Shown here: one piece after another, positions 6,206-52,802 of the stretch
How positions within the stretch are numbered: the first letter of the stretch is position 1
Layout: every line of letters begins with the position of its first letter
DNA from: Paramacrobiotus metropolitanus
Taxonomy: Eukaryota > Tardigrada > Eutardigrada > Parachela > Macrobiotidae
Reading direction: 5' to 3'
Assembly: GCF_019649055.1 (NCBI RefSeq)
Contig: NW_026570221.1
Span: forward strand, 3,596,001 to 3,660,000
DNA: 64,000 nucleotides
Notes under the pieces: generated by a model
Told to the model about the DNA's origin: nothing
Seen by the model: the letters and a program-made list of their open reading frames with translations, nothing else
Database searches by the model: none
Program-made: the position numbers and the translations under genes

Positions 6206-7740
6206 TACCAGTACCATGACATGGTACCACAACCAGTACCACTACCAGTAACAGAACCATTCTCGCTACCACTATACAGTAACAGTTATGGGAGAGTTTA
6301 ACCCGTTTAGGGTAACTAAGACATAGTTTCCCTGTACCGACCGTAATAGTCGAAACACAAGAAGTCGTTGCGCCCTCAAGAGACACCAATGGAACCAATG
6401 GAACCAATGGAACTCTATTGGAACCCGTTGGAACTGTTGGAACTACTATCTGTACATGTCTTATTGCGCCCTTGTGTGGTACCAATGGAACCAATGGAAC
6501 TCTATTGGAACCCGTTGTAACTGTTGGAACTACTATCTGTACATGTCTTATTGCGCCCTTGTGTGGTACCAATGGAACCAATGGAACTCTATTGGAACCC
6601 GTTGGAACTGTTGGAACTACTATCTGTACATGTCGTAGTGCGCCCTTGTGTGGTACCAATGGAACCAATGGAACTCTATTGGAACTCTATTGGAACCCCT
6701 TGGAACTGTTGGAACTACTATCTGTACATGTCTTATTGCGCCCTTGTGTGGTACCAATGGAACCTATGGAACTCTACTGGAACCCGTTGGAACTGTTGGA
6801 ACTGCTATCTGTACATGTCTTATTGCGCCCTTGTGTGGTACCAATGGAACCTATGGAACCCTACTGGAACCCGTTGGAACTGTTCAAACTACTACCTGTA
6901 CATGTCTTAGTGCGCCCTTGTGTGGTACCAATGAAACCTATGGAACTCTACTGGAACCCGTTGGAACTGTTGGAACTGCTATCTGTACATGTCTTATTGC
7001 GCCCTTGTGTGGTACCAATGGAACCTATGGAACTCTACTGGAACCCGTTGGAACTGTTCAAACTACTACCTGTACATGTCTTATTGCGCCCTTGTGTGGT
7101 ACCAATGGAACCTATGGAACTCTACTGGAACCCTCTGGAGCCATTGGAACATCGTCTCGTCGTCGTCATCGTCTGTACACCGTCTCATTGCGATGTTACA
7201 GATATGTGATACCAATGGAACCTATGGAACTCCTATGGAACTGTTGGCACTGCTGTAAATTGTCTCATTGCGCCTTTATCTGATTCCAGTGGAACTTATG
7301 GAACTCCAATGGAACTCGCTGGAACCGAAGGAAACATTGTTAATACGTTCCAATGGGTTCCAATAGAGTTCCATGGATTCCATGCATCACGTAAAGGGCG
7401 CAATGAGAAATGTACAGTCGTTCCGACAGTTCCAGTGGGTTCCAACAGAGTTCCATACGTTCCATTGGTATCATGAGGGGACGTAACATTAACTTCTGTT
7501 GCGGTTTCATCGGATACTAGCGTAGATATTTAGTCGGATTGGATGGAACTGGTGGAACTTATGGAACCAGTGGAACGTATGGAACCGATGTAGATTGTGG
7601 AACCAGTGGAACTTGTGGAACCATTGGAACTCTAGAGGAACCGCCTTCTTACCCTAAACGGGTTAATCTATGCCATAACATGCTACCACTACCAGTACCC
7701 CTACCAGTTCCAGTAACAATAAGTAGCACTACAAATACCC
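6206..7740. repeat. Compound minisatellite (87-bp unit) bracketed by inverted ends
   Basis: From about 6385 to 7130 there are eight near-identical units of 87 bp, built from sub-repeats of the type TGGAACCAATGGAACTC plus a spacer TTATTGCGCCCTTGTGTGG. The spacer recurs at about 6461, 6548, 6635, 6733, 6820, 6907, 6994 and 7081, so the spacing is 87 bp except for one 98-bp unit with an extra 11-bp sub-repeat. Reverse-complement units follow at 7345-7460 and direct ones again at 7540-7640. Inverted copies of TAACCCGTTTAGGGTAA lie at about 6299-6316 and 7650-7668, and CCAGTACC-rich stretches lie outside them. Because 87 is divisible by three, all three plus frames stay open over hundreds of bases; I do not read them as proteins. 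Confidence 0.85.
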
Positions 7741-8908: not shown

Positions 8909-9724
8909 ACTTCAACTTTTTATTGGTCAAATCAAAATCGCAATGCATAAGCAAGAAAAGGAACACATTAGACTATAACAGAAAAATTTCGTTTAGTTTA
9001 TCTAGCCCTTCCATCGTGCCCAGCACTGAAGCCGCATTTCCCCGCTGAATTTCGATGGACAAACGCTGTCGCAGAAATTCGTGCGAGCGTGCTTCCCCGG
9101 TGTGCTGCTGCAGTCTTTTTCCCAGCTCTTTGATGATGGCGATCGCCGAAGGTCCCCACGGGCCTAGTGTTTCGAAAGCGATCGGGACGAATAGGTAGCG
9201 GCCGGTCAGATACAAATATAGCCCTGCTTTCTTTCCTTCTGCCTGGGCAGCGGCCGCTCCCGCTGTGGTGGAAGTGGCTTTAAGATGCGATAGCGCAACC
9301 GTGTCTACACATGTCACGTCCCATGCAAGACACAATCCGCGCTTCCAGGCGAATGTCGTGCAGCCATCCGGGCGGCGTTCGTTTGTGTGAGATGTGCCGC
9401 GCGGCTCTAGTTTTGCAGGCACACCAGCGGATACAAAGGCCCTACAAATGATGCTGTTTAACCCGCCGTGGCGCGGATGCCGTCCGGCGGAGAAAACACA
9501 CGATAACCCGTGGTGCCCGTAACCACCAACGGGTTTGTGGCATTTGACGCAGTCGTGCGGTTCACAGATCGTGGCGCCGAGTCGGAGGCCGATGCTGATC
9601 TTCAGTTCGTCGTCCCCCAGTAGATTGCCGATGTGAGCGGACGGCAAGGCGTTCAACCAAATTCCGGCTTCTGGTCTAGACTGGGCAAGCAGGCGCGCAG
9701 TGTTGATTTCGTCTCCTTGAAATA
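8908..9724 (-). mobile_element. R2-like LINE, 5'-truncated copy: zinc knuckle and restriction-like endonuclease region
   Basis: A minus-strand frame (8973-9770; the last part is microsatellite) encodes the C-terminal third of a LINE protein. In order: a thumb-side segment (AGIWLNALPS, ISIGLRLGA), a CCHC-type knuckle (CVKC followed by GHHGLSC), then RPDG and WDVTCVDT. The last two have the PD...D spacing of the endonuclease of R2-type elements. The end is FETLGPWG, FLRQRLSIEIQRGNAAS and a stop at 8973. The frame is intact over this length but lacks the reverse transcriptase. It matches the longer element at 24.4-27.2 kb. TA repeats border both ends. Confidence 0.85.
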
Positions 9725-9800
9725 CCTTATATATATATATATTAACGTATATATGTATATATATGTACATATGTAATATGTATATATATATAAAGTATAT
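9725..9800. repeat. TA/TG-rich microsatellite
   Basis: Alternating TATATA, TATATGTATATA and TACATATG tract bordering the truncated 5' end of the LINE fragment. Together with 8861-8907 it suggests the LINE copy sits inside a former TA repeat. Confidence 0.9.
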
Positions 9801-10739
9801 ATGTAGTGACAGTAAATACTAGACCTTGCTTAGTAAGTAGGCTGCTTCTGTGCTTTACTGATTAAGTAAAAACTTAGTAAGCCACAAAACAGAAAAATAG
9901 TAAGTGAAAGTAAAAGTAGCCGCATCGTGAAAAGTAAATAGTAAGTAAAGTAAGAAGTGCAGATTGGAAAAAGGAAATTATTAATTAAAGAATTTACTAT
10001 TAGCCGCAACAAAATATAACGCGGCTGGCAGTACCAACACTCGGCTACGATCTTTCACTCAAAGTAAATAACTTTGCACAAACAAAATGGTTTTGACGAA
10101 ATAAATTCTCTATGCAGACTATAATTGAAGAATAAAATCTTTCGTGTACAGTAAAAACGGTATTAGAAGTACTGAATTTTGTATTTACCGGTTTGCGAAA
10201 CAAAAATTGCGTTTTAAAGAATATGTTGCGTACTGCGTTTTAAAGAATATGTTTTTCATGTTTAACACACGAATAGTCTTTTACTGTCACAAAGTAATTG
10301 TAAAAATTTTCACAATTTTCGACAACTTTAAAGTTGTCGAAATCTGCCATTGAATTCCTGAGTTGTTTCTTGGATTATTGTATCCTCGAATGAACTTGTT
10401 CACTGAAATGACAACAAAAATGTACTGCGTAGTCTGTAACCGAAAATAAGTATCCAAATAATTCCCATAATGTTTTTTTAACTTTTCAAATAATTTCCAC
10501 AAATAATTTTCATTTTCCCGAACCATGTTGAAATTGGTTTACAAAGCAATTTTGGGATATGATTTGCGTTGTGAAAGGTTGTGAACGGAGTGGTAGACCT
10601 AAAACCATAAGCGGCTAAAATTGTAACCAGCTCACTTGTTACGAGTACTTTGTAACTGATCCAGTAGATAAGGCAGCACCAATGTTAGGGCCAGTTCCTC
10701 GGCTGGGCCATTTTCCGTTCTGCGGACTGGTAATGCGTA
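9801..10739. other. Intergenic, no gene seen
   Basis: AT-rich. No conserved reading frame is recognised. A GC-richer stretch at 10680-10740 directly precedes the decayed Ig copy and may be its upstream part, but I could not align it. Confidence 0.45.
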
Positions 10740-13860: not shown

Positions 13861-14103
13861 ATACTTTCGGTGAACTGTCCACGATATTGTACTGTCTCAA
13901 CATGACATTAAAGGCTGAATATATATGCAGGAGCGCCCTTTATCGTTTTCGTAATGGCTGAAAGAAAGTATGAGTACCATAAGTGAGCAAGAAAGGTCAG
14001 TCCCGCCAGCAAAGTGCACTGCGAGTTATTTATTATCGGTTGCATTTATACAACTTTTCGTTCAACATGGACATTGCGTCGATCCCATACTGGGTCCATG
14101 CCG

Positions 14104-17100
14104 CTACTCGCCAGACTGCGTGCTGTTCTTGGGAAGAACCAACATCGTAATATTCTGCACGATCCATTCATGCAGTGCGTAGTGCGGTCGGAACCAGCAC
14201 TGGAAGTCCCCGGCATCGGCCAGCGTGACGGCCCGAAAAAGGACGCGCGCATGGGCCAGCCGTCCGGGGCTGTTGGAGGGATCTGGGTAGAGGTAGGGTT
14301 CGACGTCCCGCGGTCCTTCCCCGGCTAACGGCGGACATCCGTACGGCTCCTCCCGGGGACCATCGATGATGCGGCCATTGTGCACCCAAATGAAGTGGCT
14401 GCGCAGATTCCCGTAGATGTGTTCTGGAAGGGGCAGGTAGACGCTGCACTGCAGCGTCACTTCCTCGCCCTCCATGGCGGTCACGTACGTCTTGTCGACC
14501 GCGGCGAAGACCTCGCTGCGGCGCGTGACCAGCGGCAGCAGCAGGAAGCGCGCAAGGTACTCGCGGTGGGGCTTGCGGGTGGATTGCGAGTACTGCGGGA
14601 TGACGCAGTCCACGGAGCCGCCGGAGCGCATGGTGACGTCGCGGACGACGAGGATGAGGGTGCGGTTGACCCCGCTGAAGCTGTAGGTCTGTCCCGTGGT
14701 GTCCTCCTCGGGAAGCGCTCGCGGCCATCCTCCTCGGAAGACGGACCAGTTGTCGTGCAGCCAGGACACATCGCGCCAGTCAACGCCCACGGGGACGTGG
14801 CAGTGGAACACGGCGTCCTCGCCCAACCGCGGTCGGGACACCACGCTGCCCTCCAAGAATCGGCTGGGCGCCAGCTGTGCCAGCACCACGCGGTCGTCGT
14901 CTCGGGGCTGCAGCAGGGCCTCCGCCAGCATCTCGCTAACTAAAAATATGAGTCAGTTGTCAATTTGTTCCTTGTTCTGTTCACTTCATTCGGAACACGT
15001 TCCTGTTTACTTTCATTCAAGAAAGTTATAAAACAAATGTCTTCCAAATGTTCGACTTTCAAATGTCCGATTTTTTCCTCGAACCCATTCGGAACACGTT
15101 CCTATATGAAATCGGCATGCACAAGACCTTCTGCGCATCTGCTGTGGCTATTTCTCCGCCCGCGAACACTGGCACACAGTGACACCTGCTGGATGGTGCT
15201 TTTAAAAGCCACGAGTTTTTCAAAATTTCCAAACAAATTGGACCGTTTCTCAAATTAATTTTAAAATTATGAATTGCCAAAACCGTGAAATCCAACGGTT
15301 ATGAAATAAAAAATTATATTTTTTTTATTTTTAATAAAATAATTTTGAATGGATGAATCGATTAAATTCCATGCCGTCTGTTGAAAATCTGGAAGCTATG
15401 AATACATAATATCGTATGTCACCCTCTTATTATAAGTTTACAACAAAAAATTTGGACAAATAAATTTTTGAACGTTTTTTCATTTGTTTTAATTTTTTTC
15501 AATTTTTAAATTCATTTCAAAACAATCTCACCCTAAATTAATTCAAAAATGCGTCAAAATCAATTGAAAATCAGGCTGGAGGTCGTCACGGCGAATGTAA
15601 TTCCCAAGACTATGATGCCGTGGAAAACGGGAAACCCAGCACCAGCGTAAACGTTTGTTCTGCAAGTAGCCGCCAGCCAGAGGGGCTGCTGTTTGCCAAC
15701 AAGTTGGAATAGCCGAAAGCCGGAAATCTACTATAGCGATCACTACGAGTAGAAGACTCGTATATATTTAATATTGCTAACACTCCTGCGTAACGGCACG
15801 TTCGATTTACCTGACTGCAGTAGCGTAGTTATTTTTCAGCGCACGTTGGAGGCAAGTTTATTTCGCATTAGTGTGCTTCCAAACAACGCACTTAAAGCAT
15901 AATATAAATCGTTTCTTATAATTTTTCTCTTCGTTTGTCGTCCAAAGAAGAACCGCAAGTAAAACCGCATCACGTAAATTGCCACAACGGACGGCTCCCT
16001 GTTGATGCGCGTGCGAGCATAAAAGTAGTGCAAAAGCGCCTAAAATGCAGATATTTTAATTACCGAAAAATTACACTTTCCTGCAGATTCTCCATTATGT
16101 TTTTTACACCGGTGCATCGCCAATTTCACCCACTTCGTCGCGTGTATTTCTTGTCTTACAACGCTGGAAAACGGCGCGAATTCTGAAAATTGCACCACAG
16201 TGAATATTTTCAGAAACTTTCAACAGGGACTTCTCCGAATTTCCCCGGTGAACCGCTAAGAAATTTCGCGGTTAACAACCTCGTCCCCGGGGCACCAGAA
16301 GGCGCGCCCCGGGGAGTCGGCAACAGGTTGGTAGTGCTTGGTACTTGGTACACGAGAAAATTACAGAAATACAGCGGAAATTCGCTATTATCCATGCACA
16401 ACATTAGCCAACTCCTTTTATGGAGATACATTACCACGCCATTGCGAAATGTTTTAGGTTTCTAGAAAATTTTATATTTTTTAAATTTTTTTATGGAGAA
16501 AAAAACTACCCAACCAAGAAATAAAAAAAAAACGTTCTTTAATTCATAAGAACCTGCCCGGTTGCAAGCACGTACTGAACGAGTTCATCTTATAATTCGC
16601 TGCAATTTTCTCGCGAGACGCAAAGTCCAGAATCTCAAGAAATTTTAGTCTTTTCTCCCAGTTAGAATTCTCAGCGCACAACGACCGGTTCGGTTGTGAA
16701 ACAACCTCCAAATTCTTGGAAAAGCAACGAGACTCCAAATTGATTTTTATTTCGACACACCGCCGCTGTAATAATCTTAAAAACTTAAAAACTTCTCTTA
16801 TCTAGCATATTTGACACTTGCAGGGAAAAATACAAATAAAGTAAAACCTGCGCACAAGAGCATTGATAACTGCATAAATGAATAAAGCTGCATTTTTAGC
16901 CAGACTGTCGACGCAGTTGCCAGGCTGCATGTCTGATCAGGGAACGAGCTCCGCACAGGACAAATAGTCAGCTAGTCGTAGAAGTGAAGGAGAAAAACTA
17001 TGCTCTTGTTGATAAACGGTACTCACGGTTGACGGGTGGCGACTGCGGAGATGAGGGAGCGGAGGCGGTCGCGAAGTGCCGCAGCAGCATGAAACACCAC

Positions 17101-17156: not shown

Positions 17157-17699
17157 TGCACTGATTGCAGCGGCTGCCAGCAAAATAACGACAACGTCAC
17201 AACGTGATAAGAACAATAATTATAATTCAACAATACACAGAGAAAATAAATACGCGGGCTTAATTCGACAGCTCACGTTTGTTCTAAAACGTTTGTTCTA
17301 AATTTTTAATAACCACACAGCCCAACCGGCCCAAACCTAAACAAGCGCACGCGCAGCTTTTGCTGGCAGATGCAGATCATGCAGTACGTATATTCGATAT
17401 TCGACACAAGGAAACCAGGACCAGCTTACCATTTGGGCGTCCAGTGGCCACCTCCACGGGGAGGTTGTGACAGAGAGAGTAAACGCTGATGGAGTGATGG
17501 CTCAGCACAGCTACTTACGCTCGTTACGCCGCTGCATAAAGACCAAATTGAATATAGTACGAGTACTTACTTGAGTACTCTTACTTAATTCTTGCAGTAA
17601 GCTGTCAGTGAGTGTCAGTTGTCAAATACAGCTTTTATTAAATTTTATTAACCTTGAGTATGGTGGACAGCGTCACAAAAACAATATTCACTAATCAAA
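17157..17699. other. Region upstream of Ig gene A, no gene seen
   Basis: Expected to hold the promoter of the minus-strand Ig gene, but no convincing TATA/initiator pair was recognised. No open frame of note. Confidence 0.4.
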
Positions 17700-18890
17700 T
17701 AAAAAAATGATCCCAGTTGGAGCGTGAGCAAACGGTCGCCAAAACCTGTTTCATCGACATTCTTACCGCAATTGTTACATCGGTGCTGCTCGACTACTTT
17801 GGCACCCAGCCATAAGCCGATGCTTATGCGGAATGGTTGATCATCCAGCCAATTTCCAAAGACATTTGAAGGCAGAGCATTTAGCCACGCGCCGGCATAT
17901 TTGCTGCTAATGGCGTTTAGCCGCGCTTTATTTCGGTCATCCGTACCTGTCGCTGCCCACATCTTCTTCGTGTCGTTTTCCAAAACTGCGTGGTCCCAAA
18001 CGCAGTGGTGCACACGAGCGGGTTCTGGTGGTGTATCGGTACAGTCAGCCTGACGCTTCCACAAATCGACCGCCGCCTCAATGGCCTCATCACTGCAGCT
18101 TTCAAAAATCCCAGCCGTCAGCGTACGGGTGGAAAACACGTAGGCCAAAAAGGCCGAAGTAGCCAGCGCTTTCGTCCGACGGACACCGAAACCGAGACCT
18201 CCTCTTGCCACATGGAAAGACGCTTGCAGGAGTACGGGTCCATGCAAACGAGTGTTTGTGATCGTCTCCAAGGCGACCCGTACCAAGTCGTCAAACTCAT
18301 CCAGGCAGGCAGGCGCTTTTCAACACGGACTGTATCGCAATGTGTAGAGCAGTTTCGGTATGACAAGGCAGTTCCGCAGGATGTTGAAAGCATGGTGGGC
18401 GCTTATTAACATTAGGCGACCTAGAAGCAACTTCAGGGCAGCAATTGTTTTTGTAAGCAGACAATTAGAGCTTCCGAAGTAAGTGGTGCACCAAATAAAT
18501 TTACCATTTCAGGCTTCAGTACAACTGCCCCGGGGGCGATTGCATGAAGCCTGTTCACAATGTTTTTGCGTTCAATGTCGGAACCTCCCAGTACGAATAA
18601 CTCGCACTTTCCAGGGTTTAACTCCAGTCCAGCGTGTTGACCCTCCGCAATGATTTTGAGCAAATCATTTTCCACGTGCTCCACCTTTCCTCCCAGAGCC
18701 CTATCATCGAGGAAGAAACACACCGAGCTCCGACGTTAAATTGGTGGATATGGGTTGAGCAGCAAGGCAATATAACAGGGCTCCACCAGGATCACCCTGT
18801 TGTATGCCGGTGGCGGAGGAAATCGTGAGGCCATTGTCAAATACTGTACTTCTTGCTCTGCCTAACAAAACCTATCGCAAGTGATATACC
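17700..18890 (-). mobile_element. R2-like LINE, internal fragment (reverse transcriptase palm and thumb)
   Basis: Minus-strand pieces in shifted frames. First, TGIQQGDPGGALLY (RT motif B) and VFFLDDRALGG (catalytic FLDD in place of YADD) at about 18890-18690. Next, LNPGKCELFVLGGSD and the thumb segment with LSTSCGTALSYRNC. Finally VARGGLGFGVRR, ALATSAFLAY, AGAWLNALPSN and the first half of the knuckle, CNNCGKNVDETGF, at 17720. There are at least two frameshifts and both ends are missing. Same family as 24.4-27.2 kb, but clearly diverged. Confidence 0.8.
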
Positions 18891-19440: not shown

Positions 19441-20870
19441 TGAATAATTTCAACGTGATAAATGTTCTGCTTCGGTTACTACGAGCACGGTACCTGTTTA
19501 CATTTTTATAATTTGTTATAGCTTTATTGGGAATTTTACTGAATGTCACTCTATTCTGTTGGTTTAATTTTGTACAATTTAATTTCGACTAGGCCGCCGC
19601 TTGAAGGGACATTGTCCCGACTACCGCCGGCTCTGCTGTCACAACCGAGTTAACCCGATTTCGGACCGTAATCGAAGATCTTCTCGAATGCCTTAGCAAG
19701 TCGGCAGATGAAAAACGCGCCTTTAAGCGCCGATGTAGACGTTTCAGACGATCACCTTGATTGAGTTGATTCAGATGTATGCAACACTTCAGCTCGAAAC
19801 GATCCAGCGCAGAAGAGAGCGCCAAAATCAGAAGGATAAAGGCACAAAAAAAAAACCGTTTGACCTACGCGCGGAGTACACCGACGTGTATGACCGGAGT
19901 CAAATGACTTCCTGTGGTGTCCGTAGCCAAATGTAATAAAAATCGAACAAAAGGTCCGTTGACTCACATGTGGCGCCATTAGCCCAAACCATTAATTAAT
20001 GGTTGGATAACTTAATTTCATCAAATCAAACCAAAGAAAGTACAAAATTTTTTTAAATTAACCAAAAAAATTTTCCAGTAGCTTGGTATGATATAAATGA
20101 GCACTCTGCAGTTTTAACTTCTACCGTACCGGGCGTACTCTATGGAATCAGCATTAATGTTTACCAGCGTTCTGGTCGAAATATTCATAGCCATGGAGCA
20201 TACGAGTAAGCATCTGGCATACTCGTATCCATCGTTCATTCTTGCATACAAGCTCTGTACCGAACGATGTCATGCGTTCTGTGCTAAAAGCCTAAAACAG
20301 AGCGGCACCAATATCTGTACAACACGCCGCCAATAGTGCACTTGACGCCTGTAAAGAATACATACGAGATTCTGATCCTTCGTTGCGGGACAACTTTACG
20401 TTAGGCTGTATGAATCAGGATACATACAGCTGATAAACCAGAAACCGCGCTCTAGTGAGTAGTATTAAAGGACGGTTCACTCATGCGACGTAAATGCAAG
20501 GTTTTCTGCTAACGGATGGATATTGATCGTCCCTGCCGGCACGCAGTAATAGCATGCAAAGTATCTGCGAGCCAGGCCTGACAGGAAACGCAAACACAGC
20601 GATGTTGCCTGCCAGTTTGACAGAGACATGCAATACGATGAACTATGAGCAACGTACAACACAAATCCCGGAAAACCTTCTTTTTACGCATTACTTGCGG
20701 TTAACTTTCTGCTGCTGTTTATTGGTGAACCCAAGTTATCATCCGACGTCAAAATTAATTGACATGGATATTATTGAAAAAGATTTGCAAAATCTTCAAT
20801 TGTACATGCGGTAGAAGTTTAGCTGATCGCTAAACTGATTAGTTTGAATCAAACTCGCTTGTGCATTATC
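19441..20870. other. Intergenic, upstream of serpin 2; no gene seen
   Basis: A minus-strand open frame at 19589-19825 (about 78 codons, basic, ending SLQAAA) lacks an ATG and has no recognisable domain, so it is not called. The promoter of the serpin at 20871 should lie here, but no clear TATA box was found. Confidence 0.4.
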
Positions 20871-23800
20871 ATGGCAACTTCATCACATCCATCCAGTGCC
20901 CATCTCAAAATGTGCATCAACCTGTACAAAAACTGTGCTAAGCAGACAACTTCGTCCCGGAATTTAGTTTTTTCTCCATTTTCTGCCGAAATGGCTTTGA
21001 TAATGCTGCATGCCGGTGCAGTTGGGAAGGCACAACAGGAAATATCCGATTTATTGGATACGGATGTGCGTTTCATGGCGGGAAAGATGGCCAAGGATTT
21101 GCATCAGATGATGGAGGAAGAAGATGATAACTGCGATCCCAGCAATCCTCGCAGTAATCACAATTATTAATCACCTAACTTTGTAGCAGTAGTGTCTGGT
21201 TAATACTGTGATAATTATGAATCGAAATTATTTCCAGATAGATTATTACTAGATAAATTAATAAGCAGGCTCTTAGTGAGCTTAACTGGCAGCATCCGGG
21301 AATAATCCCAGTAAATTTATGTAAAAGTGGCTTTCTCCAAAAATGAAGGGGGAGTGCAGCATAGGCGCGCCAGTCGGTACAGACTACTTAGCTTGCCTAA
21401 GAGATATTACAAGTACGAAACATTTCCCGATCCGGTAACCTCAAGTAAAGGAAAAACGAGACCCAATTTTACTCGTACTCTAGAATTTTCTTATTATAAT
21501 GCCGATTAATGCGGTTTTTCATGTGGGTCTAGACCCAGTTGTATGAATGCAAGTTATGCAACCAAAAGAAGGCAGCTGTAGCAAAAGTTCTGAAAACTGT
21601 TCCAAATTTTATTTATTTTGTTCTCTTGTTTTCAGGTCGAAAATGTCTGCACTCTGCAGCCTGCCAAATATATGCATGTTCATTAGTTCATATTCCGAAT
21701 ATGAACTAATGAACATGCATATATTTGGCAGGCTCACGAATAATATACGAGTAATATACAAGTAATATACGAATAATTCGTATGACACGGTCACACGAAC
21801 GAAATTTATTTTTCATATCCCCAACAGCGTTTAATAAGTATCGCATGTAAGTACAAACTGAGTACTAAAAAAGACGAGAATTCATAACAAAAGCACTTCT
21901 TCAACGCTGTCCTGATCGGGGAGAGGACCCATAACACATATCGCGATTCCCCGTTGCATTTGGATAGATTTCGTTATGCAAATAACGAAATAATTTGTAT
22001 AACGTGGAGAACTTTGTACAAACGGTGAAAAATAGAAGCAAACTAGTGTTGCACTTTTAATTTCGGCTTTTAAATTCTGCGCTTTTAAAACAATTTTCAG
22101 AGCCACGTACGAGAAATTATTTGCTGTTCCGTCACAAGATTTTCCAACTTTATGAGCCATGCACACTGTGTTTTGTCTTTCTAAGTGTAAGCTTATAAAG
22201 AAATGCGTCTTACAAATCTTGCGACGACACGAACAAATAATTTTTAGAGATACAAGCCCATCCAACAATTCTTTGACCGCTGTAAGCGGGAATTTAAAGA
22301 AACGTGGGCTTGAGCCATTTAATGTGCTTCGACACGTCACGCCACATGGGTCTGCGTATTCAGCGTGAATAAGCAACAAATCTGCATGCAGTTACTGTAT
22401 CTGAGATATACAATGTAATATGTTTAGCATTATTTATTGCCATCATAATTTATATTAATTTTATGCTTTTGTAACAGTATTATCTTTGCTTTGCAATACA
22501 ATATCGCGGTGGTACTTAATATCCATATTACTTTCAAATTACTGCACCGTGCTGCAAAAAGCTGTAATTTCGTGGGATTGCAACATGCCCGGGCTAAAGA
22601 TGATTGATTCCACGTTGGTCTAATAACGGTCTATTAATTGTGATCTAATAGATTATTATTGGTTGAATATTTATAAATATATCTGCCACTACACTATGAT
22701 GCGTATTTGCATTACTGTGCGCGATTTATATGCGCTGCGCTTACAGCGGTCAAAGAATTGTTGGATGGGCTTGTAGCTGCGCACACCATGTTTTGCCAAC
22801 AAAGTCTCCACACACCACCTTTCACCACCACCAGGCTCCGCATACCACAATTCGCACCACGTTTTGTCTCCGGCCACCATTTTTACGCCAGCAATAAGTA
22901 TAATTGCAAACGTCGGTAGTCTCGAGACACCACATTTTACTCGTAGGCCTTGTCCCGAATTCAAAGCGAATCTCGCTATGGTACAGTTGCTCAACCGCAC
23001 GAGGTGGCTGTATGCAGTGGCCACGCCTACCGATACGGTACGCGAAGCCACCTCGCGAGGTGCAGTTGCTGTATCGCAACGAGATTCGCTTTGAATTCGG
23101 GACGAGGCCGTAGTTACGAAGATATGCAGTGGTCGGTCGTATATACGACTAATATGGGCTATGTATTGTAATTTCTGTGTTCGTACAGGGAGCAGTACTT
23201 TACTAAGCATACTTGGGTGTATCTAAGTTACAATGTTTTGGATTTTTAATAATTATAGCGAAGGGCAAGCGTTGACTAAACAGCAAGCATAATTTGCAAG
23301 TGAGCACAGAAAGTTCTTTGCAGCTACAATTAACCATAAACTATTTGTGATACTTTTAATCAAAAAGTCGTTCTTGGTCGATCGCCATACTAAAAAATGT
23401 CGCGTACTTCTTACTCTGATGATCGCGACGAAAATGGCCACGAGAGCGAACACCTGCGTTTCGGAATGAGTTTCGCCTCTTAGGCAGCCTAGGAGGCTGC
23501 TACTGCCAGATGCGAAAAAGAGACTTTTACGGTCTTCCAAACTCGTCGCTCCGAAAGGTTACCAGCAGCCGACGATTGTGCGAAAGATTTACAATACAAA
23601 TACATCAGATCAAACGGTAATGCGCACACAACACCCGTTATATCCCAAGAGGAATAGGGTCACGACCAGTCACCCACCGCGAGACGAAAGAGCTGTCTTT
23701 TTTCGCCCGTAATAACAATTACTAAATTTTCTTTCAAAATAGTGGTGTGCACGTGCAGAGACTCTGGTGGTGTGCAGGATGTTTATGGTGGTGTTAGGAG

Positions 23801-26800
23801 ATCTAGGTGGCTTTTTTAAAAAAATTAAAAACTAATAAAAAGTGGTGTGCGGAGCCTGGCGGTGGTGTTTCGTGGTGTGGGGAGACTTTGGTGGTGAAAC
23901 ATGGTGTGCGGAGTCTTCCCCATAATTTTTCTAATCTCAGATTCGGAATGAGGGAGAATGAATTACCAAGAATACATCGTTTGAAAGCAAAAGACCGTTT
24001 CCCCCTTGCTTTGAACCGCGACCGCACGAGTATTCGAAAAACGGGCCCTGGGCCCCAAAGTCCACCGTGATACTTGTTTTGAAAATTCTTGTAAGATTTC
24101 GAAAATTTTTTTTCAATCTGGCAACGCTAATAAGTTCATTAAGCCACAAAGAACCGATAAAGAAAAACAACATCAAGAAAAAAATCGACTTAGAAAACTG
24201 GATGGCTCACTACTCGGGATGCAGTCAGTATCTTTTAACACAGTGGCTCACTACTTGGTCTATACAAGGATACCTAACTATATATGAAACATGCGGGTCG
24301 GCCAAGTTTACCTTCGCCGCTCCTTTACCTTCTCAATTATTGAGAGATGACTTTATTTCCATAACGCGATAACAATATCAAGGTTCAGTTTCAATTAAAC
24401 ATAGCAGCATTTTCTACAGTACCAATAACAAAAGCGGCATTACCTCTTTGAATAGCTAAAGAAATGTTCTGCCTTAAAAACTCATGGCTGCGCGTCTCGC
24501 CTGTTTGTTGCTCATTTCTCTTTCCGACCTCTTTAAACAGTTTCTTAGCTGATGTACCAAAACTACCAAAAGTTTCCAAACCAACAGCGGCAAACCATAT
24601 CGCCCGGACAGAAAGCTGTATTTTCTCACTTTTTCGGCTTCAGCTTGGTCGGCTGCCGATCCGGACTTTACGCTGGTGTGATCCAAGTAAGAGCGGGCAA
24701 CGGTATCGACAACGGTTACATCCCACGCTAAACATAGCCCTCTGGTCCAGGGGAAAGTAGTGATTCCGTCTGGGCGTGTTTCGTTTTCGTGATGCATGCC
24801 TCGGGGTTCCGTTCGCGCGGGGTGCCTGCCGAAATCAAAGCCCGTCGCCAGATATCGTTAATGCAGTCGTGTCTTGCCCGTCTTCCAGCAGAAAATTCGC
24901 AACTTAAACCATGATGGCCATCGGCGGCGACTACGGCACCGCACCTGCACTGATGTTCGGAGGAAGCAGGTGCGCCAAGTCGAATGGCAACGGCGATGCG
25001 AAAGGCTCCGTCACCTAACAGGTTTCCGATTGGCGAAGAGGGAAGAGCGTGTGTCCAGACACCTGACTCAGGTGTTGAGACTGCCAACAGCCGTGCCTTG
25101 TTGGCTGCATCTGGAGTCTCGTACAACAAGATTGCTTGCTCAGCTAAACAGTACGGCGTATCCCATGCACGTTGCAAATGTCTGCTTTCGGGAAGAGGCG
25201 GTGAAGCGTCGTCAGAGAGATAGCTCCAAAGCGTGGTATGGTTGTTCGCGTCAACACCCGCTGAGTACGGCAGCAGCTGGGAAACCAGACTCTGGGTAGC
25301 GGGAATCGAGGCCAAATATGCCGGCAGTGATAATTCTTCTACCCGTCGGATTCCAAGTCATTCACAGCGAACTGGCAAGGAAGCCTGACGCCACGCGGAT
25401 GAGTTCATGCGGACATTGCAAATGGACTGTAACGACTCCCAAAGGACTTCATCAAACTCAGTAAGGCTGTCACGTACTTCAAAGGTTGGACAACACCGCA
25501 GTAGGTGAAGAACCTTCGGTGCACTGAGGCTGCATTTCAGCAGAAAGTACGCTTGGTGCTTGGGTAAAAGGTCGAGGCGGCTGGTTATAAGGCGCAACAC
25601 TTCCGTCTTTTGTTGCATCGCAGTCTTGATTCCGTCCTTCAAAAGTGGGGCACCAAGTAAACACAGGTTCTCTAGTGCAGCGACTGTAACTCCCGGGAAC
25701 CGGGTTAGAAATGCACTGGCAGCGGTCTTATGATCTTCAGTGCTTCCTCCGCTAACAAAAATTTCGCACTTTGACATGTTGACACTTAGACCGATTGACC
25801 GTGCGGCATCGATGATCGTCTGAAAATCTTCGGCAACTGTCTCGATCTGCCCACCCATAGTTCCGTCGTCGAGGAACCATGCATTGAATGGAGACTTAAG
25901 GGAGTATGTTATTGGAAGTATCCCTAGTGAGAACAAAAGTGGGCCCAGTGGATCACCTTGGTGGACACTGCTTTGAGAAGACAAAATCTCGTCATCGATA
26001 TAAAGATCAGTATAATGGCCGTAACAGGCGTGCAGGTAACTAGCATACTCCGGAAGGTGAGTGCTGGCAACTTCGATGATGGTAGCGCGAGAGATGCAGT
26101 TAAAAGCATTTTTAAGGTCTATCTTTAGAAGAACCCGCACATTGTCCGATTTATTTGTTAAAAATTCCCGTGCTGAATGGACAATGGCTTCCGATCCCCC
26201 TTTAGTACCGAAACCCATTTGACTTGGCTGTAGTGTTGTTATAGTGCGCTCTTTCACACGACTGCAGGTTACTTTTGCTACCAACCGCCTCAGGGTGTTC
26301 CCAATAGCGATAGGACGCAGGCCGCCATCTTTTTTCTGCAGAACGATAAGCTTGGCACCGCAGAATATGGACGGATACAGTCAGGAACTTTACCCTGGAT
26401 GACGATATCCAATAACTGGGCCAGGTTGTTACCGAAACTCACTGAGACATCGTCTTTCGTCTTTCCGATCATGTCAAGGAGATGCTGTGGTAGGAGTCCG
26501 TCTGGTCCTGCAGCCGACCTGCGTCGAAAACTCATGATGGCTTGGCACACTTCGTCAGAAGTAACTGGAGGTGCTGATGCAGTGGTTGCGGGACTGTTAG
26601 GTAGAGGAGATTCAGGATGCTTCTTTGACATGACTTCCAAGACCTCACGCGACGTTTCGGCTATAGAGTCAGTGGACATGAGAATGCGCACGGCTCCCGA
26701 ACAATCGTCAATCCTTGTTCCTCCACGTCTCACTAGATCACTGTTGGGGTCCTTAGGTTTCTTTGGTTTCTTTCGTTTTCGCGCTGACGGAGGACGTTTC

Positions 26801-29800
26801 TTACCACTTTCGTAATCCGCTACCGCTTGCTTGATAGTTGTGGCAAGTGAGGCTTTGCGAGCGCAGTTGGGATTTTCTGGTACAGATACAACCTGCGTCG
26901 GAAAAAATAGCACCTTTTGCCACTGGGGCTCATCATTGTTCTGCACGGTATTTTTGACGGCTTTCTCAAACGACGCAGCTACAGCCCCACGAGCACCGTG
27001 TTGAACCCTGCGGGTGATTCGCTCATTCGTCGGCGCTAGTCCGGATGCAGAATGATGGGCGGACTGGTTGGATGTAACAGGCGCAGAAGAGGTTTGAGTA
27101 GGAGACTGTTGGGTCGCTACTGGAATCAGTTCGGGGTCTTGCGACAAAGTTTTGGGACACGAACGTCTGTGTGTTCCCCAACCCTGTAATAATTTACCGC
27201 ATCCAGAACAAGTAAACTGAGGCATGACATCAAATTTCCACGACAGACACGCGTGGTAAGGAGAATTGAGCTGGAGACTTACGGGTACTCCACTGGCGTG
27301 TCGCTGGATGTCAACGGGACAGCTGCCACCACACAGCCTCTGGAGAACAACAATCTACCAGACTAAGGTCCCGTAGCCGCCCTCCATACTGAATGACGGG
27401 AAATTTGTCATCCAGGGGCGATAATGATAAGCCCAATCGTTAGTTGCGTGACCGACCAAGTTGTCGCATAAAATCTCGTCGCGGGACACTTCGTCGGCCA
27501 CATTTGGTCCCGAAGACATTTAGTTTCTGGACAAGTCGTTGCTAGTCATTTTGGTCGGGAGACATTTGGTTGCGAGACATCCGGTAACACGGACACATCG
27601 GGGCCAGACATTTCGTCGGCGGGACAATTAGATAGCCAATTATTTTAAAAGAAAAACTTTATTTTCAGTTTAAAAACGCCGTCGTTTGGCTTTGAATAAA
27701 TTTTATTGAGACCGGCATGTAAGATTACACATTTCTGTATATTTTTAAATTTTTGAAACCGTAGTCTTACATTTTAAATAGATGATACACAAATTTAAGT
27801 TGCTGATTTCAGTGATTTGTACATAGTGCCTTTCTTAAAACACTTACGACGTAATAATTGTGATATACTATAGTGACTATACTAATCCATCTGCTACTCA
27901 TTACGTCACTACGTGGTATTAAATAACAAATATACACTAATAAATCAACCTAGTTTTTGCACTTTCACTGGCAAAAATAAAGCAGAGATAACAACCAAGC
28001 GACAACCATTTTGGTTATTTATCCCGGTTGTCTATCTCCGGCTTCTAACAGACTCTCTATCTGGAGCTCATTCACAGAGAAATCACAGCACGGACAGTCA
28101 CCCTCACTTTCCTTTACCCGAACAATGATGTAGTTCCAGTTCCCATCACTCACTTTGATTATGTGATAGAGGGGCTGGACCGAACGAGTCTCCGTTTCCA
28201 CACATTGAGACCTATAAGATACAAAAAGAATTAGGATCAAGTCGTTTACTGCTGAACAGCAATAAAATTTAACAATGACTTTCTCTTTCTGACTTGCAGT
28301 TGCTCTTTCACTCTTACGATTGTAAAAGACGGGCAACTCTGGTTTAATGTTTTCAAAAGTCGACGCGGAATCGCGCCAAGATCACACTTCAAAAAACTTA
28401 CGACAACGGTGCTTCCAAGATAATTACACTATTTTGCTAGTTTTTTTAACTAAAGCGCGAACTTCAACACATTTGACCTTTTGATTCATTTCGTTCAGTT
28501 TTTAAATATCATGGCTGAATACAGTTTTTCTTCGACCATTCGTGGTGGGAAGCTATTAATACATGATTATTTTATGTATACGCTGGAACGAAAGGTCAAT
28601 ACTGCCCAGTTTTGGCGATGTAAAGACCGTTCGTGCAATGGTCGCGTGCGCCTGCTTGACAACGCACTCACTGTTACCAAAGTTCACAGCCATACAGGTG
28701 ACCGTGCTGCCATAATTGCACACACTTCACACATGGATTTGCGTCAGAAAGCGGCAGGTGACCTTGGACAAACACGCCAAATTGCGCAAGCAATCAACAG
28801 TTCCGTGCCAATCCAAAACCCAAAAAAATGCGGCGCAACGAAAAGTCCATGCGGCGATTTATCCATGCGACGAAATGTACCAGTTAAGTAAGCAACGAGT
28901 ACATTTGCTACAAACTGTCACGACAACGAAGTGTCCCAAAACGAGTTGTCCTTGTAACGAAACATCCTAACACCAGTTGTCCCTCGACCAAAAGTCCTTT
29001 AGACGAAGTGTCCTTGACGAAATGTCCCGCGACGAAATGTCCCGCGACGACTTGTCACGTAGCCGTTAGTTGTTTGAAGGTCATTATATTATTAAAGTAA
29101 GCCTTTTTTGATCTGCAATCCTTTCGTAAATCTTCATTGCAGAAATTCTCAGACTCAAATATTTACTTATTTCTCAGACTCAAATATTTACTCAATTATT
29201 TACTTTTCTCTTGGCCGTTGTGAAAGCCTATGCGTTCACCGTTTCAATTTACCGTTCGAAACTGCAGAGTTATTGAGGTTGCTTTTAATTTGACGATTCA
29301 GAGGTACCGTATGTGTTTACTTAATAAAATATAGATAATCTATTCGCTTGAAACGTCTATGCCATAAGGTATATCTTAAAGCAGATTCACTTCTAGGTAG
29401 GGACGAAAATTTTCGCTTGTACCTGGCCAACGTTCTGCTTACCGCACAAAGCGACATTATAAAACCGTTTTACATGGAAGAAATCAACAAGATATTTAAA
29501 GTGGTTAACTTGGAAACCTCCGGTACCAGGCGCAATGAAATATTCAACCGTTATTTACAAGAACAAACCAAGGGCAAAATGAGCGAGACGGATTTATTTT
29601 CCAGTCTGTCAGAAATTTCCACCTGCAGAATCTTCAATGCACTCCATTTCCAGTCAAGTTGGCGGCGGCCCTTTAGCACGGCAAAAACCCTAAAGAAAAC
29701 TTTCACAACGGCGGACGGAGGCCGTGTTTCCGTGGACACGATGCATATTATTCTGAAATGCCCCTGCTGGACACCGGAGGACATGGGCGGGGCCAAATTT

Positions 29801-30526
29801 CTTGAAGTGCCCTTTGCAGAAGGTTTTTGGAAAGCGATTTTTATACTGCCCGGTCTTACAAGACGGTTTCCTTGGATGCAGAAGCGCCAGCACAGCTTGG
29901 AGGAGCTCACTAGTTTGCTGACGGATGTTAAGTTAGCAGAAATTTTGAAAAACATGCGTAATAAAGTGGTGCAGGAGGTGGAGATTCAAATGCCGAAATT
30001 TCGAATGGAACGCAATATAGAGCTGTGTCCAATACTGCGAGAACTGGGCCTTGTGACGGCACTGGATGACTCGGCGGATTTTTCTGAAATGGCGGAAACA
30101 TCACCGTTTTGTATTAACAGTGTCCTTCAAAAAGTCAGAATAGGTATGGCAACTTTTCCACTAAGCACCGTTTGCAACCGATTTTTCGCTTGAAATTCGT
30201 GTAGCTTCGTTGTCACTGCTGACGAAAATTTCTGACAAATAAAAAAATGTGTTATGAAGACAACAGATTTTGGGAAATCTAATAAAACTTTTGGTATCGG
30301 AGGAAACACTAACTGGATTCCAGGATTGCATTTTCTAGATGTTGACGAATACGGTACGGAAACACCACCCATCAATAAGCAGTTAACCATAATGGACCAA
30401 ATGGACAACTTTATGCCGTATAACGGCGAGTTTATCGCCGACCGACCGTTCATTTTCCTAATACGTCACCGGGATCTTGATTACATTGTGTACATGGGAC
30501 ACGTCGCGGATCCTTCAGCTTCATAG
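20871..30526 (+). CDS. Serpin, three exons with an 8.2-kb first intron; probably non-inhibitory
   Basis: Exon 1 is 20871-21153, exon 2 is 29385-30143 and exon 3 is 30339-30526. Both introns are phase 1, and the total is 1230 bp, 409 residues, which is normal serpin length. The first ATG in frame is at 20871; the upstream TTG at 20844 is not needed. Exon 1 gives helix A/B (LVFSPFSAEMALIMLHAGAV). Exon 2 covers the body (LANVLLTAQSDIIKPF, FNALHFQSSW, MPKFRMERNIEL). Exon 3 gives the reactive loop and the end (FIADRPFIFLIRH, YMGHVADPSAS). The second intron is at exactly the same place as in the serpin at 1-1779 (KVRI/DVDEYG). The hinge reads EYGTETPPINKQ: prolines and bulky residues replace the Ala-rich stretch needed for loop insertion, so I infer a non-inhibitory serpin. 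The exon 2 acceptor (AAAGCAG) is weak and is the least certain boundary. Confidence 0.85.
21658..21734. repeat. Perfect 38-bp palindrome with 1-base spacer
   Basis: Arm 21658-21695 (AGCCTGCCAAATATATGCAT...) is the exact reverse complement of 21697-21734, with a single C between them. Located in the first intron of serpin 2. Confidence 0.98.
21882..22000 (-). mobile_element. R2-like LINE, C-terminal scrap
   Basis: The minus-strand frame ends ITKSIQMQRGIAICVMGP... and VEEVLLL before the stop. This matches LRQRLSIEIQRGNAASVLGTM...NEIFLL of the LINE copies. Only about 35 residues can be aligned. Confidence 0.55.
22240..23930. repeat. Dispersed short repeats: TACAAGCCC block and GGTGGTG-rich block
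   Basis: A ~40-bp block (TACAAGCCCATCCAACAATT...) occurs at about 22251-22290 and inverted at about 22740-22780. Directly beside the inverted copy, 22781-22860 holds a CACCA-rich segment. Its reverse complement (TGGTGTGCGGAGCCTGG, GGAGACTTTG, AAACATGGTGTGCG) recurs at 23841-23915, within a GGTGGTG-rich stretch starting near 23740. All lie in the serpin 2 intron. I recognise no coding content. Confidence 0.6.
22946..23109. repeat. 164-bp imperfect palindrome
   Basis: The outer 30 bases (22946-22975, GGCCTTGTCCCGAATTCAAA...) pair with 23080-23109 with one mismatch. Further inward AGTTGC and GGTGGCT/AGCCACC pair again with interruptions. It resembles a MITE or foldback element, but no target duplication was identified. 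Confidence 0.8.
24391..27225 (-). mobile_element. R2-like LINE, near full-length ORF with disabling lesions
   Basis: The ORF runs from ATG 27225 to a stop at 24391. In order: an N-terminal CCHC zinc finger (CSGCGKLLQGWGTHRRSC), a basic KKRPPSARKRKKPKKPK segment, SAAGPDGLLPQHLL, then the reverse transcriptase. The RT contains KKDGGLRPIAIGNTLRRL, LLKIDLKNAFN (motif A Asp), SVHQGDPLGPLLF (motif B) and NAWFLDDGTMGG (catalytic FLDD). The thumb (LGIRRVEELSLPAYLAS), the knuckle (GHHGLSC) and the endonuclease (RPDG...WDVTVVDT) follow. Lesions: one missing base near 26360, an in-frame TGA at about 25355, and frameshifts near 24790 and 24575. Family knowledge: PD...D endonuclease with CCHC is typical of R2-clade LINEs. 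It lies antisense in the serpin 2 intron. Confidence 0.88.
27438..27446. repeat. 9-bp target site duplication, left
   Basis: CGTTAGTTG, identical to 29064-29072, directly outside the MULE ends. Confidence 0.85.
28019..28211 (-). CDS. Exon-like frame inside the MULE, possible captured host sequence
   Basis: On the minus strand a strong acceptor (TTTTTGTATCTTATAG) precedes a frame of about 63 codons ending in a stop at 28019. It contains PLYHIIKVSDGNWNYIIVRV, then CPCCDFSVNELQIESLLEAG. I do not recognise the protein. Its position inside the transposon and opposite to the FLYWCH frame suggests a captured gene fragment, but it could be chance. Confidence 0.35.
28511..28891 (+). CDS. FLYWCH-type zinc finger protein of the MULE (truncated)
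   Basis: ATG at 28511 (MAEYSFSSTIRGGKLLIHDY...). Residues ~5-62 fit the FLYWCH pattern: F, then RGGKLLIHDYFMY, QFWRCKDRSC (W-x-C-x4-C) and VHSHT (H-x-H). FLYWCH fingers are DNA-binding modules at the N-terminus of one animal MULE transposase group, and some host proteins derive from them. Here the frame runs into the right terminal array and stops after ~126 residues, without a transposase domain. An in-frame ATG at 28481 would add ten residues. Confidence 0.75.
   Translation: MAEYSFSSTIRGGKLLIHDYFMYTLERKVNTAQFWRCKDRSCNGRVRLLDNALTVTKVHSHTGDRAAIIAHTSHMDLRQKAAGDLGQTRQIAQAINSSVPIQNPKKCGATKSPCGDLSMRRNVPVK
29064..29072. repeat. 9-bp target site duplication, right
   Basis: CGTTAGTTG, the partner of 27438-27446. 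Confidence 0.85.
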
Positions 30527-34860: not shown

Positions 34861-35394
34861 CCGGTTCAGTGTTAACGTCACGTCCTGTCGCACGCTGTAC
34901 TCGTACTCAAAATCCCACAGCTGGTGTAGTTGTACAGCTGGACACAATCTCCCCATAGCACTAGATATAACCGTCCGCAGCACGACCGGGAAAATATATC
35001 GCTTCAACCAAAAAGTCACGAGCAAAGGGGAAATTTTGGGCAATCTACAGTAAAATCCCTCTACTACATACACCCTCCGTTCCCAGCTCTCTGAATGTTG
35101 TAAAGAGGTGTATGTTACACAGGGGCACTGCCCCTGGGGGTGGTCAATGACTCACCCCCAGGGGGCTGGCCATATATTGGTCAATAGCAACTAAACACGG
35201 TGCCGCTAATGTTTTGCTTACAAATTTATGTTAATCCTCCAAAAAATGGCTCTGCAGCGCTTTTGTTGAGCATGCCTTTTCGAAAAGCTGCTGTGTTACT
35301 GGCAGTTTATTCTACAGAATAAACCGGTAACCATTAATTTTCAACGCCTTTTTGCTGCTTTTACTGTCAGATCTGGTATTTTACTTTACCATTT
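34861..35394. other. Intergenic, with one small hairpin
   Basis: No gene seen. Contains a GC-rich hairpin at 35125-35165: CCCCTGGGGGTG and CACCCCCAGGGG, 12 bp perfect, 10-base loop. Confidence 0.6.
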
Positions 35395-36065
35395 TTCGAC
35401 GCAAGACGTATGGTCGCGGAAAATTCGTCGTTGGACTTTTCGAAGGATCTGACAAGTCACCGAAAAATAATTTACCGCGCTTAATTCTCACTAGTTTATC
35501 AGTTTTTTAGACGTGTTCTTATTTTTTCTTAGGTTTTATTCTTAGGTTTCTTAGGTTTTCTTAGTCTTTCTTAGACTTTCTTGGGTTTCTTAGGTTTCTT
35601 GGGTTTTATTAGTTTTTCTTAAAATTTTTTAGGGTTCTTATGTATTCTTTGGTTTGCTTATTTAAATTCTTAGGTTTATTAGTTTTCCTTTGAGTTGTTT
35701 AGGTTCTTTCTTTGGTCTTCGAGGTTTTTCTTAGGTTTTTAGGTTCTCAGGTTTTTTAGGTTGTTTGTTTGGTTTTGTTCTTTTCTAGATTTCCTTTTTT
35801 TAACTCTTAGTTATATTAGCAAATCGTTTATCTGATAGGCGAAATGTCGCTTCGTGGAGATGTCCTTGCGGCAAAATATCCTTGCGTCGAAACGGTCATA
35901 GGACGGAAATTCTCGCGGCGTAAAGTCCCGCTGATGAAATGTTCTGCGACGAAACGTCGCGCGGCGAGATGGCAGCTTGCGGTGAAATGTCTGCGACCAA
36001 AAGTCCGGCGACTAGTTGTCCGCGGAGAAATGTCGCGGTGCCAAAGATAGCACGACAAATGGTTA
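35395..36065. mobile_element. Second array-ended foldback element with TTCTTAGG core
   Basis: The left end (35395-35465) carries GACGTATGGTCGCGG, TTCGTCGTTGGACTTTTCG. The core (35510-35815) is T-rich with many CTTAGGTTT(C/T) units. The right end (35838-36055) is an array of GCGACGAAA/GGCGAAATGTC units in inverted orientation. The arrays are of the same kind as in the MULE at 27.4-29.1 kb, and core plus left array match 290-660. No ORF belongs to it. The outermost bases (TTACCATTTTTCG and, reversed, TAACCATTTGTCG) look like terminal repeats; no target duplication was resolved. Confidence 0.7.
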
Positions 36066-36203: not shown

Positions 36204-39200
36204 TTATCGGCTCAGCACCGCCATATCGAACCCATCCAATACCGGATCAATGCCGCTTTTCTGTGTGCCGTTCCTGGGTAAAACCAGCAGCGTCTTCGTC
36301 TGCACAATCCACTCATGCACGCCCAGGTGGGGCCGGAACCAGCACTGGACCGATCCTCCATCCGCCAGCGTGACGGCTCGAAAGTGAAATTCCACCTGCA
36401 AAAGCTGGCCAGGGCTGTTGACGGCCAATTGGTAGTCAGCTTCCACATCCCGGGGTCCTTCCCCGGCGGGCATCGGGAGCCCGTACGGCGCCTCCCAGGG
36501 ACCTTGGACGATGCGGCCCTGATGCACCCACATCAACTGGCTGGGCAGGTTCAGGAGAAGGCCTTCGGGAACCGGCAGCCGGATGTGCCACTGCACCGTG
36601 ACTTCCTCGCCCTCGATGGCCGTCACGTTACTCTCGTCGGCCGCGGCGAAGACGTCGCGGCGCTGCGTGATCAGCGGGAGAATGAGGAAGCGCTGCAGGA
36701 TGCGGCGCTCCCGGGTGTAGGGAGGGTCGATGACGCACTGCAGGAGGCCGCCGGAGCGCATGGTGACGTTGCGGACGACGACGGTCAATGTATCGTTAAC
36801 GTGGGTGAAGTTGTAGGTCTGCCCCGTGATGTCCTGCGCCGGCAGCGGCTGCGGCCGTCCATCTTCGAAGACGACCCAGTTCTGGTGCACCCAGGACACA
36901 TGACGCCAGTCCACATCGGCCGGAACGCGGCAGTGGAACGTCGTGTTCTCGCCCAAACGCGGCCGGTCCATCACGCATTCCGTCAGGAATTTGTTCACCG
37001 CCAACCCCGGGAATACGACGCGGTCGTCCTGTCGGTGCGGCATGGCTTCCGTCAGCATGTCCTTCACTAACGTGCAAATCAGTTGTAAAAGCTTGTCGAC
37101 AAGCTGAGCATTCGTAAATACAGCGAACATTAGGAATTTACGGGTAGCTTGTAAATCCGTACTACGGCGCGCCACGGCATACTGTCTAAACACGTAACAT
37201 GCATTTGGCTGGCTGGTGGCTTGGTGCACACCGGATATTTTAACGAGAACAATTATAACTACCTGGCGTAAGGTGGCTACAAAGCGGTCGATGCAGTACA
37301 GGACAATCCAACTGCGAAGCGCAGTTTTGCATTGCGATGAACGTAGTGCAGTGGCCATCATACAAGCGCCAACTTCGCACTAGTATCGCTCTACCCGTAT
37401 CTTTACATGCTAAATTGATGGCAGGGTTGTAATTGCATCGTGTCTTCTTATTCCGTTAAGAACACGTTCCTCTATAAATTCGGCAGTCGCCAAGCTACTG
37501 TGGCTGTCCGTCAGCGCGCGCCCACTGCCACAAGGGGACAGTACACAATATTTCAATCTATGTTGACACTTTACAACAGAAAATATTGGAAAAATAATTT
37601 TTTTTATTCATTTGTTTCCCCTTATCGTTATTTCTGATTGTAAAGTTTCAATTCATTTCAAAACTGCCTCAAAACAAAACTGACTGAATTCCAACAGAGG
37701 TCCTCACGGCGAATGTACTTCCCAAGAATACGAAGCTATGGATAAGGAGAAACCAAACGGCTGCGTTTGTTGTGCACGAAGCCACACTTCAGAGGGGCCG
37801 CTATTGGCTAAAAAGCTAGAACGGTGCTAGCTGCGGTGCGGCGGTGCTAGCTGCAGTTTCCGGATACAAATCGATCGTGTTTTTATCTATTATCATTTTA
37901 TATAGAATTATTATATTTCTAGAGGAAGCTTTTGAAATTTTGCTGAAATATTGTTATATGCATCGTTACCCAGCGACTTTCCGATTATAGTTATATAATC
38001 TTAAATTACCGGAAACCAGGATTAGAATAAAATTCAAGATTTCTGGTATTTTATAGCGGCTTGGCTGGGGGTACGTATTTATATCAGCATTTTCCATCGT
38101 CCAGGAGCTGGGCACGCCGGCGCACGGGCCCGAGGAGGGCGTGTACAGCTGGGCGGAGCTGCTGGACCTGGCCAAGTACGTGCCGGACGTGGCCATCCTG
38201 GAGCGGCACGCCGCCATCGCGCCCAACAAGTGCTGCACGGTCATCTACACCTCCGGCATTTTTTCTTTTCTTTATTGGTGTTATTATCTAACTACAGTAG
38301 CCATCTTCTTTTAATGGAGATATGTTAACAGCTTACAGGAAAGCTGTTTTAGGATTAGTAGAAAATTTCTTGCATTTTTAGTTGAATTTTTTGAGATAGA
38401 AAGTTACGCAGATACACCCGCGGAACCCGGCGCGATTCGTTCCCGAAAATTCTACAGACGTCATTAGCATTTTCCAAAAATTTCAAGGTGATTTTTCCGA
38501 GTTTAATTATTGATTAATTTATTTATTTCCGAATTTAATTTATATCGAAACAATTTAACAATTACTCTAAGTCAAGTATTCAGCCCTATCGGTCTCCGAC
38601 AAACTGGTACAGCAGATTCAAGGAGAAAAACAAGCAGGTACAGCAAAATAACACAGAAACTCTGGCTGAGACAATTTCCGGACACAATCGTACTTATTGT
38701 ATTTTACTGAATTAATAATTAACATTATTATTATCAATTGTTATTATTATTATTGTTGAACTCAGTAGACAGCTCCTTTACTAATGCAGATATATTATTA
38801 TCACGCATTCAGGATACTGGAAATTAATGCTGGGTTTTTTTGAAAATTTTGGTGTCTTTTTTTTAGCCTGATTTTATGAGATGGAAGTTACTCAACCGAA
38901 AAAATATTGAAAAAAATTATCTATCAAGGCAAATCGTCCAGCGGCCCGCATGTACAGAACATCTAAAATTCCAAGAAAATTTCCCTTTTTTTCCGAGCTC
39001 GGAATTCAGAGAAAAAGCTCCATTTCGCTCGCCACGCCCAGCGACGCACGTTATCCTGCGAAATACACCAGAAAATCCATGAAAAAATATTAAACAAATT
39101 TTCGAATATTATTATTTTCGCCACACCGGCCTCGTAATAATTGTAAAAATTAGACGTTTTTCGAATCTAGCGCACCGGAACTGGACAACTAAATTAACTC

Positions 39201-52524: not shown

Positions 52525-52802
52525 CAAATATCCGTAGATACATGTTATACGTACATGTTATCGTCAGATGGATGTTTGGCATGTATTAGCCATGGCAAAT
52601 GCATGTGGAACTTGTAGAAGTAATTATGGCGTCATAGTAAGGAGATCGCCGTTTATCCCGTGAATGTTTTTATCGTGGTGTTGATGCGATAGAAATGACG
52701 GGACAAGCCTGTGTATGCATACGCTTACTACAGCAAACTAATAAACACTGCAATACAATGTTTATGTACATTACGGCTTGTATGTTGTAACCGTGTTATA
52801 AC
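52525..52802. other. Intergenic, no gene seen
   Basis: Short spacer between the two inverted-repeat elements. Confidence 0.5.

Follow-up and report, generated by a model that had tools for sequence, protein, structure and literature searches.

A probable non-autonomous Mutator-like element with inverted terminal arrays and a FLYWCH-only reading frame in Paramacrobiotus metropolitanus

What kind of mobile element encodes a FLYWCH finger between two inverted arrays of short tandem units, with no recognizable transposase beside it? The question is raised by the element at 27438–29072 in the 64 kb stretch of Paramacrobiotus metropolitanus DNA analysed here (the window). A first-pass annotation of the same DNA had described it as a Mutator-like element (MULE) and had regarded the combination of array ends and a lone FLYWCH finger as unusual. 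We show below that the first part of this description is well supported, the element being of a non-autonomous kind, whereas the second has to be revised in the light of elements already in print.

The window encodes serpins, immunoglobulin-like domains and a fucosyltransferase. Two serpin pieces, at 20823–21167 (profile positions 5–75) and 29339–30190 (profile positions 74–316), have profile ranges that join, which points to a single gene with an intron of about 8 kb. The element therefore probably lies inside this intron, with the second exon starting about 0.3 kb beyond it as judged by eye. A minus-strand reverse-transcriptase frame (25361–26380; RVT_1, E = 3.7e-19) is also found within the intron; taken with its neighbouring open frames, it represents a minus-strand retroelement at 24477–27354, and the frames at 8976–9818 and 17651–18319 resemble, by eye, the C-terminal frame of this retroelement. 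Several other repeats were observed in the window. An 87 bp tandem array of TGGAACC-type repeats (6390–7133; 8.4 copies, 92% match) is open in more than one frame. Long self-inverse repeats are located at 52802–53489 (85%), 58115–58801 (78%) and 62143–62668 (68%); they are partly alike, also to 55250–55670, and perhaps represent another foldback-like family. The segments 14082–14943 and 36234–37070 are 71% identical and both immunoglobulin-like, with a Pfam match at the cut-off for the former and below it for the latter. No hit was obtained when the window was scanned with Rfam and for tRNAs (ARAGORN with the bacterial code).

The borders of the element are sharply defined. The 9 bp sequence CGTTAGTTG at 27438–27446 is repeated perfectly and in direct orientation at 29064–29072, enclosing 1617 bp (27447–29063) exactly as had been annotated, and each copy lies 6–7 bases beyond the outermost anchored array unit on its side. 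When pairs of 24 bp stretches were drawn at random from the window (200 000 draws), 0.19% of the pairs had an exact 9-mer in common, a frequency to be read with the fact that the tested place was preselected. An exact 9 bp repeat at the array ends has the size of the target-site duplications typical of MULEs (8–10 bp, mostly 9 bp). Inside the duplication, the extreme ends of the element look unlike each other by eye.

Both ends are built from arrays, which we delimited using CGACGAAATGTCC as anchor with up to five mismatches in 13 positions, a lenient limit. The left terminal array (27447–27634, minus strand) contains 11 anchors between 27454 and 27634, with nine of the ten successive spacings at 14–16 bp and the remaining one at 31 bp. 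The right terminal array (28836–29063, plus strand) contains 14 anchors between 28836 and 29057, and here 11 of 13 spacings are of 14–16 bp, the other two being 28 and 12 bp. The inverted arrangement that had been annotated is thus present in both arms, on opposite strands, with a unit period of 15–16 bp rather than the proposed 15–18 bp. The core consensus, derived from ten of the 11 left units and 12 of the 14 right units, is identical in the two arms (CGACGAAATGTCC), although the units are degenerate: the arms (approximately 190–230 bp) align in inverse orientation with about 65% identity over 160 columns. Foldback elements are recognized by inverted repeats that consist of short tandem units and are unequal in unit number at the two ends, as here (14 versus 11 anchors).

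The weight of these arrays depends on the control against which they are set. Counting anchors with at most four mismatches on one strand, the densest 250 bp stretches of the window contain 12 (right arm), 12 (a second element, at 35.8 kb) and eight (left arm), compared with a maximum of three in ten first-order Markov simulations of 64 kb. A control set of 81 loci (80 viral contigs and one Streptomyces contig) is harsher: 12 loci reach four, the Streptomyces contig (L081) reaches six and one viral contig (L021) reaches eight. The eight anchors of L021 were rejected as a related array, as they belong to a different repeat with four mismatches in each copy, whereas L081 contains a genuine short array of a similar unit. 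Because these two controls reach eight and six, array density by itself is not diagnostic; the diagnostic feature is instead the inverted pair of arrays together with the duplication.

Between the arrays, an open reading frame of 126 codons runs from an ATG at 28511 to 28891 on the plus strand (the start and the residue numbers were counted by hand; the ORF list begins this frame at an upstream TTG). The annotated FLYWCH finger is confirmed at residues 6–61 by Pfam (PF04500, 35.5 bits for a cut-off of 23.6, E = 1.1e-8) and by a match to the FLYWCH1 finger (PDB entry 2rpr, E = 2.7e-6), the sole FLYWCH chain among the three solved structures listed. Its zinc ligands, which we take to follow the motif W-x-C-x4-C and H-x-H, appear by eye to be in place. 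The model predicted for the FLYWCH piece is too poor for use, with a mean pLDDT of 36.2. An N-terminal FLYWCH finger on the element protein is a feature of the Phantom subclass of MULEs. The right array has its first anchor at 28836, so that the final 18 codons of the ORF consist of array units. Such an overlap is consistent with an internal deletion in which roughly the first 108 codons of a transposase gene were spared and its catalytic part was lost.

As had been annotated, the element contains no recognizable transposase: a six-frame Pfam scan of 27638–28840, with stops read as X, yielded no transposase or other domain at E values up to 1, the ORF's own frame from the ATG onwards being covered by a separate ORF search. 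No captured domain was thus recognized in the other frames of the interior. On the minus strand, a 120-codon frame is open at 28022–28381; we considered it as a possible captured host exon, but it gave no Pfam match. The segment 27635–28510, without a recognizable domain in any of the six frames, may correspond to the leader or promoter of the old transposase gene, or to filler.

This layout has close counterparts in two animal groups. In Aedes aegypti, 14 Mutator-like families with 8–9 bp duplications have been described, of which 12 have terminal inverted repeats (TIRs) longer than 100 bp; ten of these 12 contain subterminal tandem repeats of 9–15 bp, and 13 of the 14 families encode an N-terminal FLYWCH finger (PMC5225508). 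Muta1, classed as a type 2 Foldback element, has a TIR of 145 bp with nine copies of a 12 bp unit separated by 3–4 bp spacers, and Muta5 has a TIR of 151 bp with nine copies of a 15 bp unit; they have more than 300 putative derivatives (Muta1, often with truncated arrays) and more than 200 (Muta5), and in yeast the Muta1 transposase mobilized each of the five natural derivatives tried (PMC5225508). In the root-knot nematodes (Meloidogyne), Tm1 is a Mutator/Foldback family with tandem units of 13–15 bp in unequal number at the two ends, asymmetric extreme ends, duplications of 8–10 bp in 45 of 53 complete elements (mostly 9 bp), a FLYWCH+MULE transposase of the Phantom subclass and MITE-like non-autonomous members (PMC3169594). 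Derivatives that keep their ends and vary inside are known in both groups (PMC5225508; PMC3169594). The combination of array TIRs with FLYWCH is therefore not unusual, contrary to the first-pass annotation. A limited literature search returned no description of a FLYWCH-only derivative of such Mutator elements.

The tardigrade element shares with Muta1 and Muta5 the duplication size, the tandem-unit TIRs and the N-terminal FLYWCH finger, and with Muta1 also the 15–16 bp period. It differs from them in its longer arms with 11–14 anchored units, in the modest likeness of these arms and in that no DDE domain was found; the comparison is one of architecture. With Tm1 it shares composite TIRs, an unequal unit number, the 9 bp duplication and differing extreme ends (here by eye), but the arms of Tm1 are on average 93.15% identical, compared with about 65% here. 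We also considered kinship with the Tm1 unit, CGATTCAGTATCCGC, which matches at eight of 15 positions; this score was reached by 8770 of 20 000 shuffles and, not being above shuffled sequence, shows no sequence kinship. Phantom MULEs as a whole have duplications of 8–10 bp where indicated, TIRs of 18–613 bp or none, FLYWCH in some members and, in aphids, a minisatellite after the transposase ORF (PMC6446971). The word Phantom does not occur in the Aedes Mutator text (PMC5225508). Membership of Phantom rests on the transposase, and none was found in the element at 27438–29072.

Taken together, these features make it very probable that the element at 27438–29072 arose by internal deletion from a FLYWCH-type (Phantom-like) Mutator DNA transposon, that it is non-autonomous and that it has the Foldback form. 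If a gene encoding both a FLYWCH finger and a DDE domain were internally deleted, the finger alone could be left. The putative parent would be a full-length relative at another genomic position, with a gene for a transposase that joins a FLYWCH finger at its N terminus to a DDE (MULE) domain. By binding the repeated 15–16 bp units in the two terminal arrays, this enzyme would mobilize the element through a cut-and-paste mechanism and generate the 9 bp duplication. The deletion would have spared the FLYWCH finger and a linker but taken everything between them and the right array, and the roughly 47 residues after the finger would then be a putative part of the transposase rather than of a host FLYWCH gene. 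Lacking the catalytic part, the present copy could move only in trans. We count in favour of this reading the duplication, the inverted arrays, which share one core and are denser than in the Markov simulations, the FLYWCH match, the end of the ORF in the array, the second element at 35.4–36.07 kb and the same anatomy in Muta1/Muta5 and Tm1. Against it we count the low likeness of the arms compared with Tm1, the second element without a clear 9 bp duplication, the similar unit found outside transposons in the Streptomyces contig and the viral contigs, which gave no confirmed protein relative.

The second element (35389–36065) belongs to the same array family, and TTCTTAGGTTT-like repeats make up its interior. 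Its right arm (35837–36035) contains 13 plus-strand units, with one further weak anchor at 36053, and its left arm (35389–35462) contains five minus-strand anchors with two to five mismatches; its core, CGGCGAAATGTCC, is nearly the same as CGACGAAATGTCC. The arms match in inverted orientation (35415–35465 against 35977–36024; 70.6% over 51 bp, E = 7e-4). As seven more minus-strand anchors occur in the interior or right arm at the same lenient limit, the left arm leans mainly on the anchors at 35418 and 35433 and on the 51 bp inverted match. The best candidate duplication is an exact 8 bp repeat, GACGTATG, at 35405 and 36084, of a type expected by chance about once in eight in the searched space (hand estimate). 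The coding content of this element was judged from frames of at least 110 codons. A third segment, at 342–694, combines a decayed left arm (four anchors on the minus strand within the 250 bp that start at 351) with a TTCTTAGG-like interior and resembles the second element, 410–694 being 63% identical to 35378–35651; no right arm was seen for it in the window. It directly follows a serpin piece at about 65–271 (profile positions 247–316). An array unit common to elements with different interiors is as expected of a transposon family.

Beyond the window, relatives of the FLYWCH protein were sought in viral contigs, where four pattern matches yielded none that was confirmed. The array core, searched as a 14-mer, occurs in at least 80 stretches of viral contigs; among the matches listed, 79 have a single match and one (L068) has two, separated by about 7.2 kb. 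Adjacent pairs of consensus units were found in no viral contig and once in prokaryote genomes, in the Streptomyces contig L081. Here six units near GACGAAATGTCC, spaced 13–16 bp apart on one strand, lie at 3780–4120 in GC-rich bacterial sequence, and no second arm was seen within that segment. We infer that this is an unrelated, convergent repeat; it is perhaps an intergenic repeat or an operator array. In the published literature, six papers contain either of two array-unit 11-mers as text, and no match, as listed, looked related.

The Streptomyces array bears on another explanation of the locus, in which the arrays would be an unrelated minisatellite and the 9 bp match a coincidence. Arrays of a similar unit do exist outside transposons, and the duplication of the second element is not clear-cut, its 8 bp match being of a kind that chance would supply about once in eight. 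We nevertheless consider this explanation highly improbable, since the arrays are inverted, the duplication sits right at their ends and a FLYWCH ORF lies in between. Somewhat less remote, although still unlikely, is a Pack-MULE, the array ends having taken up part of a host gene for a FLYWCH transcription factor, from which the ORF would derive. About 20% of Muta1 derivatives contain sequences alignable to host genes (PMC5225508), lineage-specific FLYWCH genes have been reported in animals (PMC10027918) and the best solved-structure match of the ORF is itself a host protein, FLYWCH1. On the other hand, the finger directly follows the ATG, as it does in Muta1 (residues 24–92 of 504; PMC5225508) and Tm1-A (residues 5–66 of 496; PMC3169594), and transposases of array-ended elements usually carry a FLYWCH domain at the N terminus, as in 13 of the 14 Aedes families. 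Capture is thus not needed, and the ORF is explained more simply as a transposase remnant.

The deleted-transposon reading is compatible with a further step, in which the FLYWCH-only protein would occupy the arrays and repress the transposase, and the element would owe its retention to this activity. The P element offers a model, being repressed by its own derivative KP. The ORF is open over 126 codons with its apparent zinc ligands, and the arrays would be candidate binding sites for such a protein. Yet chance alone can keep an ORF of this size open, and DNA binding by the finger is called unclear by the Tm1 authors even for the Tm1-A transposase (PMC3169594). We regard it as unlikely, slightly more so than host capture, that the FLYWCH-only protein is a working repressor acting on the arrays of the whole family, including this copy, the 35.4 kb element and others.

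The locus is thus a further example of the FLYWCH type of Mutator element with array ends, a type whose layout was already known from the mosquito and from root-knot nematodes (PMC5225508; PMC3169594). Its 22 aligned units (ten left and 12 right) provide material for deriving a candidate site of FLYWCH fingers, although Muta1, with a transposase that works in yeast (PMC5225508), is better suited to the question of FLYWCH binding. If a FLYWCH-only repressor did act across the family, unlikely as we judge this to be, the length of the arrays of each copy would set the strength of its regulation.
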